The notes under the pieces: model-generated
What the model saw: only the letters and a program-made list of their open reading frames with translations
Databases searched by the model: none
Told to the model about the DNA's origin: nothing
Assembly: GCA_020725625.1 (NCBI GenBank)
Contig: DYET01000090.1
Coordinates: 1 to 50,259 of the forward strand
Direction of reading: 5' to 3'
From: Desulfovirgula sp.
GTDB lineage: Bacteria; Bacillota; Desulfotomaculia; Desulfotomaculales; Desulfocucumaceae
Length of the DNA: 50,259 bases
Translations under genes and position numbers: made by a program
Shown: positions 33,440 through 37,727 of the stretch, in pieces
Layout of the letters: every line of letters starts with the position of its first letter
How positions within the stretch are numbered: the first letter of the stretch is position 1

Positions 33440-34054
33440 CTACAGTCCGGCCAGCCTCTTCATTTCGTACACCGCCAGCCCCGGAAGAAGGGCATAGTCT
33501 TCCGTTTCCAGGTGAAAGGGTGCCGAGGCGTCATAAAGTACATTGCCCGATGGAGGGAACTCCTCGTCCCCCTCCCAGATAACGAAGGTTATGGGCACCT
33601 TCGGGAACACCTGGACGGTCACCGCCCAGTCCCCCACGTCCGCCCTGGTTCCGCCCAGCAGTTCTCCGGCTTTGACCAGCATCTCTGGCCTGGACCCGAA
33701 AATGGAAACCAGAGGCCTGATTGCCCGGTTGTTGAAGGGGCCGACGTATATCGATCCGTTCGGTAGTTCCTTGAAGGTAAGGTACCTTCCCGTCAGGCCG
33801 ATGTGGCTGGCATGGGTAAGGTAATGCAGTATGCACACCCTGTACGTCAGCGAGACGCTTTCATTTCCCCGGGCCGGGGTGATTTCACCGTCCGGGTGGC
33901 TGACCAAGTATTCCCTGCCCAGAAAAGAAACCCGGAAAAGCCTGGTTTCCGGGTCGTACCCGACACCCGCCCTCCCGGCGGTATCCTCGGGGACGATTCC
34001 GGCAAATTCCGCCCTGGCCTTATCGTGGGCTGGGTTTAAATCTATCAGCGCCAT
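33440..34054 (-). CDS. DUF3786 domain protein
   Basis: A 204-residue protein of the DUF3786 family, common in strict anaerobes and of unknown biochemical role. Family-type segments are VSLTYRVCILHYLTHAS, GRYLTFKELPNGSIYVGPF, PLVSIFGSRPEMLVKAGELLGG and PITFVIWEGDEEFP. ATG 34054 follows GGGAGGT, five bases from the second copy of a tandem 14-bp repeat that contains the likely -10 element. A longer frame to 34246 lacks a ribosome site. No metal-binding motif is evident. Confidence 0.8.
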   Translation of the reverse strand: MALIDLNPAHDKARAEFAGIVPEDTAGRAGVGYDPETRLFRVSFLGREYLVSHPDGEITPARGNESVSLTYRVCILHYLTHASHIGLTGRYLTFKELPNGSIYVGPFNNRAIRPLVSIFGSRPEMLVKAGELLGGTRADVGDWAVTVQVFPKVPITFVIWEGDEEFPPSGNVLYDASAPFHLETEDYALLPGLAVYEMKRLAGL

Positions 34055-34064
34055 TTTAACCTCC

Positions 34065-34092
34065 CGAGTATAATTTAACGAGTATAATTTAA
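34065..34092 (-). promoter_or_regulatory. Tandem 14-bp repeat carrying duplicated -10 boxes
   Basis: CGAGTATAATTTAA occurs twice back-to-back (34065-34078, 34079-34092). On the minus strand each copy reads TTAAATTATACTCG with TATACT, a good -10 element. The nearer copy lies immediately before the DUF3786 ribosome site, so the farther copy is more likely the functional one, or it is a repressor site. Confidence 0.5.
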
Positions 34093-34232
34093 TTAGGAAA
34101 TATTTACGACGCGCGGCCGCGGTTTTCCTTCCCCTTCCGGCCGGCGGGAACATCCCATCTGTGTTTTTCTGATTGTTTTGTTGTTCCTGTATTAATTTGG
34201 AGGAATTTTTCCGGGGGCCATAGAATAATAAA

Positions 34233-34245
34233 TGCTGCCGCAGCA
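34233..34245. promoter_or_regulatory. Palindrome upstream of activase cassette
   Basis: TGCTGC-C-GCAGCA is a perfect 6+6 inverted repeat about 56 bases upstream of the first activase-cassette gene, in a promoter-like AT-rich context. Operator role is a guess. Confidence 0.3.
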
Positions 34246-34300
34246 ACTGTTATATTATTTTTCTGACAAAATATTTTTTTAGCAGGGAGGTTTTTGCGGT

Positions 34301-35299
34301 TTGATAGCCCGTGTCGGCATACCCAGTTCACTTTTTTATTATGTTCACTTTCCCATGTGGCAAACCTTTTTTTCCGAACTGGGCATCGAAGTGGTCACAT
34401 CAGGTCAGACCACCAAGGGCCTGCTGGACGAAGGCGTCAAGGAGGCCCTGGCCGACGCCTGCGTTCCCATAAAGCTCTTTTTCGGCCACGTCATAGCCCT
34501 CAAGGACAAGGTCGATTATCTTTTCATACCCCGGGTTGTCTGCCTTAACCGCAAAACCATATACTGCCCCAAGTTTTTGGGGCTGCCCGACATGATCAGG
34601 CACGGACTCTCGGGCATACCGCCCATCATCGACGTGCAGATGGATAACCGGGAGGGGTGGGCCTCCCTTTGGAGGTCCTACCTGAAAATAGGCAGGATTT
34701 TCGGCAAAGGCAAAATGAAAATCCTTATGGCTTACCTTAAGGCCTGGGCGGTGGCCAAGCGCTTTCAATCCCTCCTGCTGGCCGGCATGCACCCGCCCGA
34801 GGCCATGGCCGTTTTGAAGGAGGGCGGCAGGGTTCAACCCCGGCACGATCACAAGGGGGGACTGGTGTTCGCCGTTCTGGGCTACCCCTACGAGGTGCAC
34901 GACCAGTTTATCAGCGTGGGACTAGTTAAAAAGCTGAAAAAAATGGGCGTGTCCGTGATCACCATGGAAAACCTGTCGCCGAAAAAAATCGCCCGGGCCA
35001 ACATCCTGGAGAAGAAAATGTTCTGGACCTTCAGCGATCTGGCCCTAAACGCGGCCTACTACCTTTTCAGGGAAGGGAAGGTGGACGGGATCATTCACCT
35101 CACTGCCTTCGGCTGCGGCCCCGACTCAATGGTTGACAAGCTGATGGAGCTTGCCTCCAAGGAATACCCGGAAATCCCGTACATGAGCGTAACCATCGAC
35201 GAGCACACCGGTGACGCCGGCGTATCCACAAGGCTTGAAGCCTTCCTGGACATGGTCAAGAGAAAAAAGGAGGCGCAACAAGGTACATGCCCAAGGTAA
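34301..35299 (+). CDS. Acyl-CoA dehydratase activase-related protein (DUF2229-like), part 1
   Basis: A 332-residue protein resembling the DUF2229 region of large 2-hydroxyacyl-CoA dehydratase activase fusions. Segments: RVGIPSSLFYYVHFPMWQTFFSELG, DACVPIKLFFGHV, LFIPRVVCLN, and FGCGPDSMVDKL with conserved cysteines that may bind a [4Fe-4S] cluster. TTG 34301 follows GGGAGG at ten bases. It is the first gene of a three-gene cassette and overlaps the next by 13 bases. Function not established; possibly maturation or reduction of an Fe-S dehydratase partner. Confidence 0.78.
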   Translation: MIARVGIPSSLFYYVHFPMWQTFFSELGIEVVTSGQTTKGLLDEGVKEALADACVPIKLFFGHVIALKDKVDYLFIPRVVCLNRKTIYCPKFLGLPDMIRHGLSGIPPIIDVQMDNREGWASLWRSYLKIGRIFGKGKMKILMAYLKAWAVAKRFQSLLLAGMHPPEAMAVLKEGGRVQPRHDHKGGLVFAVLGYPYEVHDQFISVGLVKKLKKMGVSVITMENLSPKKIARANILEKKMFWTFSDLALNAAYYLFREGKVDGIIHLTAFGCGPDSMVDKLMELASKEYPEIPYMSVTIDEHTGDAGVSTRLEAFLDMVKRKKEAQQGTCPR

Positions 35300-36396
35300 C
35301 CTTCCCGCGCATGGGAGAATCATGGCGGACCTTTAAAATGCTCATGAACGATCTGGGCAACGAAGTGGTGGTTCCGCCCAGGCCCAATAAAAGAACCCTG
35401 GACTACGGCGTCCGGTACGCTCCTGAATTCGCCTGCCTGCCCCTTAAAATACTGATGGGAACATATGTCGAAACCTGCCTGGAAGGGGCGGAGCTAATCG
35501 TTACCAGCGGCGGATCGGGCCCCTGCCGGGCCGGGCTCTATGGGCAGTTGCACAAGAAGATCCTAAACAGCATCGGCTTTCCCGTCGACATTATCGTCTT
35601 CGAGGCGCCCAAGAACCACCCCATCGACTTCCTGCGCAAGGTCAACCGTCTTAATGCCAGCCGGCTGTCCTACCGCGCCATCTGGGAGTGCATCAAGAGA
35701 GGATGGGAAAAACTCAAATACCTTGACGACGTGGAAAAGCTGACCCACGTGGTCCGCCCCAGGGAACTGGAAAAGGGAGCAACCACCAGGGTATACCGCA
35801 GGGTCCTGGAATGGATCGACATCGCCTATACCATGAGTGAAATCAAGGAGGCCGGCGAGGCGGCCCTCCAGGCCATCAGGTCGGTTCCCCAGGACGCGGA
35901 AAGAAAAGTCCTGAAAGTGGGTATAGTCGGTGAAATATACGTCCTGCTGGAGCCCGCCAGCAACCTGGAAATCGAAGAAACCCTGGGCATCCTGGGCGTG
36001 GAGGTTCACCGGTCGATGTTTCTCACGGGCTGGACCCAGGACAACACCGTCAAGGAAACCAGCGAAACCCTCTCGGTCAAGGACGCCGCCGCGCCGTACA
36101 TTCCCTTATGCATCGGCGGCCACGGGCAGGAGTCGGTGGGCCACACGGTACTGTACGCCAAGGAGGGATATGACGGAGTCATCCAGCTGGCGCCCTTTAC
36201 CTGCATCCCGGAAATTGTGGCCAGAACCATCCTCAATCGCGTGAGCAGGGTGCACAACATTCCGGTCCTGACCTTCTTCCTTGACGAGCAGACCGGCAAG
36301 GCCGGGATGACCACCCGCCTGGAGGCCTTCGTCGACCTCATGCGCAGGAAGAAAAGCCAGGCCGGCGCCCTGCACGCCCGGCCGGAAGTCGTTTAA
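35287..36396 (+). CDS. Acyl-CoA dehydratase activase-related protein ('CoA protein activase'), part 2
   Basis: A 369-residue relative of the preceding protein. It has the same kind of N-terminus (TFPRMGESWRTFKMLMNDLGNEV), conserved cysteines in ACLPLKILMG and SGGSGPCRAGLYGQL, and a C-terminal half with PYIPLCIGGHGQESVGHT, PFTCIPEIVAR and LTFFLDEQTGKAGMTTRLEAFVD. Such proteins are found fused or adjacent to BadF-type ATPases. ATG 35287 follows AAGGAGG and overlaps the upstream gene. Probably forms a complex with both cassette neighbours. Enzymatic role unknown. Confidence 0.8.
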   Translation: MPKVTFPRMGESWRTFKMLMNDLGNEVVVPPRPNKRTLDYGVRYAPEFACLPLKILMGTYVETCLEGAELIVTSGGSGPCRAGLYGQLHKKILNSIGFPVDIIVFEAPKNHPIDFLRKVNRLNASRLSYRAIWECIKRGWEKLKYLDDVEKLTHVVRPRELEKGATTRVYRRVLEWIDIAYTMSEIKEAGEAALQAIRSVPQDAERKVLKVGIVGEIYVLLEPASNLEIEETLGILGVEVHRSMFLTGWTQDNTVKETSETLSVKDAAAPYIPLCIGGHGQESVGHTVLYAKEGYDGVIQLAPFTCIPEIVARTILNRVSRVHNIPVLTFFLDEQTGKAGMTTRLEAFVDLMRRKKSQAGALHARPEVV

Positions 36397-36465
36397 CCGG
36401 GCAGGCCGGGGAACACGGCATGGGTCCCTGCAACTTAGCCGAAAAAAATTGACAAAGAAGGTTAT

Positions 36466-37425
36466 TTGACAATGACAGCCTACCTGGGAATCGACGTCGG
36501 ATCGGTCAGCACCAATATCGTCGTGATCAACCAGGCCAGGGAAATACTGGCCGCCCTTTACATAAGAACCCGGGGCAGGCCCATCGAAGCCATCCTTTCA
36601 GGCCTGTCCGAAACCGCCGGCCTCCTCCCGCCCGGGGTGGAAATCGCCGGGGCGGGGTCCACCGGCAGCGGCCGATACCTGGCCGGAGTGATGGTCGGCG
36701 CGGACGTGATCAAAAATGAGATTACCGCCCACGCCGTGGCGGCCTCCATGTACGTGCCCGATGTCCAGACGGTGATAGAAATCGGCGGCCAGGACTCCAA
36801 GATCATCATCATGCGCAACGGGATAGTGACGGATTTCGCCATGAACACCGTTTGCGCGGCGGGAACCGGGTCCTTCCTGGACCAGCAGGCCTCCAGGCTG
36901 AACATACCTATCGCCGACTTCGGCGAGATGGCCCTAAGCTCCTCGGCCCCCGTCCGCATCGCTGGCCGCTGCACCGTCTTTGCCGAGTCCGACATGATCC
37001 ACAAGCAACAGATGGGCCACAAGCTCAGCGACATCATCAACGGACTTTGTGAGGCCTTGGTCAGGAATTACCTCAACAACGTGGGCAAGGGCAAGGAAAT
37101 ACTGGCCCCGGTCGTCTTCCAAGGCGGCGTGGCGGCAAACGCGGGGATCAAAGCGGCCTTTGAAAGGGCCCTCAAGCTGCCCATCATCATCCCTAAACAA
37201 TTCAGCGTTATGGGCGCCATCGGGGCCGCCCAGCTTGCCCGGGAAGAGGTGGAAAAAACCGGGCGGACAAACTTCAAGGGCTTCAAAATCGCCGGGCTCC
37301 CTTACCGGACCAGCAGCTTCGAGTGCGGGGGCTGCCCCAATAACTGCGAAATCGCCGAAATTTACGAGGAGGACAGGGTAATCGGCAGGTGGGGCGCCCG
37401 CTGCCAGCGGTGGGATGTGATGTAA
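36466..37425 (+). CDS. BadF/BadG/BcrA/BcrD-type acyl-CoA dehydratase activase
   Basis: A 319-residue ATPase of the ASKHA fold that activates radical 2-hydroxyacyl-CoA dehydratases or benzoyl-CoA reductases by ATP-driven electron injection. Key segments are LGIDVGSVSTN, GSTGSGRYL, EIGGQDSKII, VCAAGTGSFLDQQA (one [4Fe-4S] ligand Cys) and IAGRCTVFAESD (second Cys), then FQGGVAANAG. The C-terminal tail adds four cysteines (ECGGCPNNCEIA, ARCQRW), which is more than the basic activase. It may start at TTG 36466 or ATG 36472, with AAGAAGG upstream. No dehydratase subunits are encoded nearby. Confidence 0.9.
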   Translation: MTMTAYLGIDVGSVSTNIVVINQAREILAALYIRTRGRPIEAILSGLSETAGLLPPGVEIAGAGSTGSGRYLAGVMVGADVIKNEITAHAVAASMYVPDVQTVIEIGGQDSKIIIMRNGIVTDFAMNTVCAAGTGSFLDQQASRLNIPIADFGEMALSSSAPVRIAGRCTVFAESDMIHKQQMGHKLSDIINGLCEALVRNYLNNVGKGKEILAPVVFQGGVAANAGIKAAFERALKLPIIIPKQFSVMGAIGAAQLAREEVEKTGRTNFKGFKIAGLPYRTSSFECGGCPNNCEIAEIYEEDRVIGRWGARCQRWDVM

Positions 37426-37727
37426 GGCACAGGGCCCGTAACACCATTTGGAAGGGGCAACCCCCGGTTCGATTGGTTGTAAGGACCGCCCGTTAGGGCG
37501 GCTTTTTTACGCCTTTTTCGCGGCCGGCCGGGGCCGCACCGGGCAAAGAAAAAACAGTATCTAAAGGTGTCCTTTTAATCATACATAAAAATAATACGGA
37601 TTTGTCGGGCGGGAGATAATATTCTGAGGGCCGGAATGCGGCCCCAAAAACCAAACCCGGGTTTTCACTATTCAGGCTAGCATTGTTTAGGGTAGCATTC
37701 CGCGCTGCTTAAGGAAGAGATCGGTAC
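37426..37727. other. Intergenic region between activase cassette and glucan operon
   Basis: No gene seen in 302 bases. It holds the cassette terminator (37484-37508), then AT-rich sequence (37550-37700) that likely contains the promoter of the malQ operon. No match was clear enough to place -35/-10 boxes. GGTTCGATT at 37466 resembles a tRNA T-loop but no cloverleaf forms. Confidence 0.5.
37484..37508 (+). terminator. Rho-independent terminator after the activase cassette
   Basis: CCGCCC-GTTA-GGGCGG forms a perfect six-pair hairpin followed by CTTTTTT. It isolates the activase cassette from the alpha-glucan operon. Confidence 0.9.

Follow-up and report, generated by a model that had tools for sequence, protein, structure and literature searches.

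What does an ATP-driven activase act on when no dehydratase is encoded beside it? The question is raised by a three-gene cassette of Desulfovirgula sp. (3.15-Mb draft genome, assembly GCA_020725625.1). It was found in a window of 50,259 nucleotides of contig DYET01000090.1, the window being the whole stretch of DNA that was analysed. In about 90% of the sampled Bacillota genomes, proteins are annotated as activases for which the dehydratase is missing. The literature searched contained no study on the function of DUF2229 proteins, to which two of the three gene products belong. The features of the locus are as follows.

34286..34291, forward strand: ribosome-binding-like GGGAGG 5' of the TTG start of P1, read directly from the sequence
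34301..35299, forward strand: P1, DUF2229 protein of 332 aa; open frame, predicted HgdA/B (BzdN/O, DCCP) fold
35287..36396, forward strand: P2, divergent DUF2229 protein of 369 aa; open frame, predicted fold as in P1
36466..37425, forward strand: P3, BadF-type ATPase (activase) of 319 aa; open frame, Pfam and NCBIfam matches
37324..37404, forward strand: C-terminal extension of P3 with Cys 287, 290, 294 and 313, outside all solved activases matched
37486..37508, forward strand: intrinsic-terminator-like hairpin CCGCCC GTTA GGGCGG, followed by C and six T

The frames, the gene order and the family matches agree with the preliminary description of the cassette as two DUF2229 proteins and a BadF-type ATPase. 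P1 and P2 overlap by 13 nt. The GC-rich hairpin lies 60 nt 3' of P3. In a terminator scan the real sequence was only slightly above shuffled sequences in terminator-like sites, and thus the terminator ascribed earlier to the cassette is retained for the shape and position of this single site. The sole HGD-D signals on the contig of the window come from the tail regions of P1 and P2. No other HGD-D genes were found there, in agreement with the statement that no dehydratase genes flank the cassette. A DUF3786 protein is encoded upstream of P1 and divergently from it (33440-34246, reverse strand); its true start is probably the ATG near 34055. Many loci of Desulfotomaculales keep this gene beside the cassette.

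P3 is a genuine activase. It scores 156.6 bits with BcrAD_BadFG of Pfam and 175.8 bits with the acyl-CoA dehydratase activase family TIGR00241 of NCBIfam (cut-off 125.4), and its residues 5-265 match HgdC, HadI, MbdQ and DCCP-R. The cysteine pair of the bridging [4Fe-4S] cluster of BadF/HgdC-type activases is present: Cys130 and Cys169 are invariant in 27 of 27 sequences and align with cysteines of the same four proteins. The tail of about 50 residues lies past the end of each alignment with a solved activase. Its four cysteines, already noted as an extra C-terminal feature, are likewise invariant (C287, C290, C294 and C313 in 27 of 27 aligned sequences), and judging from sequence they are a probable extra Fe-S site. 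P3 could in principle activate other cellular acceptors too. The best-scoring activase of the genome is a solitary one on contig C194 (L024:10251-11054, forward strand), which has no HGD-D neighbour.

P1 and P2 are, according to their structural models, acceptor-type subunits of the dehydratase/benzoyl-CoA-reductase fold and not a part of the ATPase. In Pfam, P1 matches DUF2229 with 173 bits and the C-terminal part of HGD-D with 31.4 bits (cut-off 28.4); P2 matches DUF2229 with 39.6 bits in its N-terminal part, and its HGD-D tail is below the threshold. Neither protein matches HGD-D (PF06050) at full length, only the last 65-70 residues or so being aligned. Neither matches the models of HadB/HadC or of the benzoyl-CoA reductase (BCR) acceptor subunits, and with the DCCP model NF040772 P1 is far under the cut-off and P2 gives no match. 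AlphaFold models were built from alignments of 53 (P1) and 47 (P2) sequences and have pLDDT of 91.7 and 89.0, respectively. Their only full-length PDB matches are subunits of DCCP, HadBC (2-hydroxyisocaproyl-CoA dehydratase), BzdNO and MbdON, with Foldseek E-values of 1e-9 to 1e-5 and VIA-align Z of 13-17 for P1 and 11.5-16 for P2 across 277-306 residues. The best unrelated PDB chains reach Z of about 10 over only about 120 residues. Both models have the three-domain HgdA/B fold along the whole chain, and P1 is homologous to P2 along its length (hhalign probability 99.8). It is this whole-length match, together with the mutual homology, that points to acceptor-type subunits outside the ATPase, and it places a predicted acceptor inside the cassette. 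Two earlier statements have to be revised. The cassette was said to have no dehydratase, whereas P1 and P2 are themselves modelled as dehydratase/benzoyl-CoA-reductase-fold subunits by AlphaFold, Foldseek and VIA-align. The DUF2229 proteins were taken for accessory parts of an activase; instead, their models match the whole subunit fold of the HAD/BCR/DCCP proteins.

Only three cysteines are invariant in each acceptor protein, 54, 89 and 272 in P1 (53 of 53 rows) and 50, 80 and 306 in P2 (47 of 47 rows). No further cysteine position is present in more than half of the rows of either alignment. The last cysteine of P1 and that of P2 align with a conserved cysteine of DCCP and HadC. Profile-profile alignment with the HGD-D subunits of the same genome reached mainly the C-terminal part, too little for a residue-level map of the N-terminal cysteines. 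The positions of the N-terminal and middle cysteines are therefore putative assignments from spacing and fold match; the alignment of Cys50 of P2 with PAFAC of HadC is weak. In BzdO the ligands of the [4Fe-4S]-OH2 cluster are Cys95, Cys128 and Cys380, and in BzdN the [8Fe-9S] cluster is held by six cysteines (PMC11971306). The cysteine spacing of P1 and P2 resembles the BzdO site. As each has three invariant, BzdO-like cysteines, the pair is read as a 3+3 pattern: both proteins look like BzdO/HadB sites, and this likeness would also suggest the cluster type.

The same parts occur in single chains. In each of five fused DUF2229 proteins analysed, a P1-like domain comes after two P3-like ATPase domains, and in four the C-terminal cysteine extension was matched on the second ATPase. 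A long P2-like match was found in three of the four fused proteins of 1348-1444 aa, and none in the 991-aa form. In chains of about 1440 aa the P1, P2 and P3 profiles match consecutive stretches in the order ATPase-ATPase-P1-P2, and a 1439-aa example keeps the cysteines of all three parts. Since the fused chains keep the same cysteines, the cassette can be identified as a large activase in split form that has its own acceptor, and its earlier interpretation as the split form is upheld by the profile matches. Like the fused large activases (about 1440 or about 985 aa, with a P2-like domain only in the 1440-aa form), it has an ATPase with the cysteine extension, a P1-like and a P2-like domain. 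It differs from them in consisting of three genes in the order P1-P2-P3 with one ATPase, presumed to be a homodimer, whereas the fused form is one chain in which two ATPase domains stand in tandem. This tandem would correspond to the P3 dimer. Large activases had also been presented in the preliminary description as fused chains that work on a partner dehydratase; the fused chain is confirmed, but not the separate partner, as the architecture holds the same acceptor pair.

We consider it rather probable that the cassette is a complete two-component ATP-driven reductase of very low potential, with P3 as the activator and P1-P2 as the built-in acceptor, and that its target is not a partner dehydratase. 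Alternatively, it could be an ordinary activase, with P3, assisted by P1 and P2 as accessory proteins, serving 2-hydroxyacyl-CoA dehydratases or benzoyl-CoA-reductase-like enzymes encoded elsewhere. Indeed, the genome-wide search for HgdA/HgdB-like genes that had been proposed did find HGD-D pairs on C175, C161 and C12, a partial gene at the contig end of C104 and a single gene on C92, and only the C175 locus is accompanied by two ATPases of its own. However, these genes do not track the cassette across genomes, and the solitary C194 activase could serve the enzymes in question. In the phylum, DUF2229 is present in 359 of 398 sampled Bacillota genomes (about 90%) and full-length HGD-D in 206 of the 398 (E 1e-10 or better), so that at least 153 genomes have the former without the latter; as the genomes are partly drafts, single absences are weak, and these phylum-level counts are far less sensitive to this. 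Thus perfect co-occurrence with dehydratases, which had been named as the mark of an ordinary activase, is absent. In the class, relatives of P2 occur in 110 of 113 genomes and P3 in 107 of 113 (E 1e-80 or better), and some genomes of at least 97% completeness have the cassette but no paired dehydratase genes. In G035, G042, G045, G047, G093 and G111, all of this completeness and all with the cassette, the best full-length HGD-D match is as weak as the C92 type. The C92 gene itself (L023:3287-4270, reverse strand) is solitary, encodes 327 aa, is unlike the paired dehydratase subunits and occurs in most class genomes. It was rejected as a universal partner, as complete cassette genomes lack this type (G010, G012, G019, G020, G022-G025), and a dedicated dehydratase partner in general was rejected, as cross-genome co-occurrence fails. 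With an acceptor already supplied by P1-P2, service to distant dehydratases is unlikely, and the earlier notion of a stand-alone module stands.

The gene neighbourhood suggests other targets. In Desulfotomaculales the window-type cassette is preceded by minC, a NUDIX gene and often the DUF3786 gene. Downstream of it, at least 14 named loci have cobO, meaB and/or genes of the large and small mutase subunits. In several relatives of Pelotomaculum the distance from P2 or P3 to the start of cobO is 51-79 nt, which is operon-like. These data would fit a corrinoid reductase, either one reducing cob(II)alamin so that CobO can adenosylate it, or one reactivating an acyl-CoA mutase that depends on cobalamin. 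On the other hand, in mutase loci with cobO directly after the cassette the gap between P3 and cobO is about 470-760 bp, and cobO is thus probably on a separate transcript. MM_CoA_mutase is absent from 17 genomes with the window-type cassette, several of them at least 97% complete, and CobO is absent from G039 (92% complete) and G040 (85%); hence both were rejected as obligatory partners. Relatives outside Desulfotomaculales have differing neighbours, and the linkage to corrinoid genes may be inherited gene order. The window itself has glycogen genes downstream instead, and the mutase genes of this genome are on other contigs. The window-type cassette and the mutase family occur together in 52 genomes, one without the other in 17 and 9, and neither in 35 (Fisher p about 1e-8); this association is confounded by family-level relatedness and was left out of the evidence. 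As the cassette persists without corrinoid genes, a role dedicated to corrinoids, though possible, is not supported, and we regard a corrinoid reductase as improbable; of the corrinoid target proposed earlier, partial support from the neighbourhood is left and strict dependence on mutase or CobO is not. A role in sporulation or germination is far less credible still. Class genomes often have two paralogous cassettes, one of the window type and another whose P2 is about 43% identical. In this genome the second P1-P2-P3 cassette (C1:32831-35907; L018:6832-9907) lies behind sporulation genes of the spoVA type, and its orthologues have kept their place after dacF-spoIIA-sigF-spoVA in most of the class loci inspected, where dacF, spoIIA and sigF were identified by eye. 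However, the cassette in the window has no sporulation neighbours, and DUF2229 is also present in three species used as controls, Thermotoga maritima, Lactococcus lactis and Thermus composti, none of which forms spores.

Some further observations concern these neighbourhoods. In loci L113, L116, L118 and L121 of Pelotomaculum relatives P3 is gone from the cassette and cobO lies 53-79 nt past P2. P3 is retained elsewhere in the corresponding class genomes, which agrees with the two-component reading; loss was therefore rejected in favour of relocation. The Desulfovirgula genome (G000) has nine MM_CoA_mutase matches (E 1e-40 or better), which is unusually many, some of them cut by contig ends. 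Genes that are presumably Hsp20-like and spore-cortex-hydrolase-like, named by eye from sequence, recur near some cassettes; they look incidental and were set aside.

The two-component reductase that we favour builds on computed results, namely the predicted acceptor fold, the cysteine pattern, the match of architecture and the independence from dehydratases. We infer the P1-P2 and P3-P3 assembly, the cluster types and the direction of electron flow as follows. The P3 homodimer would hold one inter-subunit [4Fe-4S] cluster at Cys130 and Cys169. It would be reduced by a ferredoxin-like donor, perhaps via the four-cysteine C-terminal site. ATP binding and hydrolysis would then push the electron from P3 into P1-P2, a putative heterodimer in which each subunit may bind a [4Fe-4S] cluster through three cysteines, leaving one coordination site open. 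Finally, P1-P2 would hand the electron to a target other than a partner dehydratase. Large activases of 1440 aa would be the same machine in a single chain, with tandem ATPases replacing the P3 dimer and the P1- and P2-like domains behind them. If DUF2229 is indeed the acceptor, the proteins annotated as activases are complete enzymes, and the question shifts from which dehydratase is served to what is reduced. The split cassette, being three small proteins, is directly testable and is expected to be more tractable than a fusion of 1440 aa.

On a broader scale we propose, tentatively and with slightly less than even confidence, that the HAD/BCR/DCCP series has a fourth, undescribed branch, made up of P1-P2-P3 together with the fused large activases. 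Its members would be ATP-driven reductases that are nearly universal in Bacillota, each with two open-site [4Fe-4S] clusters (3+3 cysteines) and an additional Fe-S site for electron entry, and their housekeeping target would be something other than CoA-ester dehydration. In comparison with known machines, P1 and P2 share the fold of HadBC/HgdAB, and the three-cysteine [4Fe-4S] site per subunit resembles that of HadB. However, the sequence match is limited to the last 65 residues or so, and no dehydration substrate is linked to the cassette. P3 is similar to HadI/HgdC over residues 5-265, but has the four-cysteine tail in addition. DCCP/DCCP-R (7yzm, 6eno) shares the fold with P1 (Z 16.9) and P2 (Z 16.1) and likewise has an activase partner. 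It differs in that the acceptor of the cassette is two different proteins, and in requiring six cysteines per subunit for [8Fe-9S], for which the three of P1 and of P2 are too few. The physiological role of DCCP is likewise unclear (PMC11971306). Class I benzoyl-CoA reductases (BzdNOPQ, MbdONPQ) have, like the cassette, two different dehydratase-fold subunits and an ATP-binding dimer whose subunits are bridged by a cluster. However, BzdN has six cysteines for the double cubane and neither P1 nor P2 does, both being three-cysteine subunits and not a pair of BzdN-like (six-cysteine) and BzdO-like (three-cysteine) type. Thus the 3+3 pattern of P1-P2, as compared to 6+3 in BzdNO and a double cubane in each DCCP subunit, would give this series another cluster layout.
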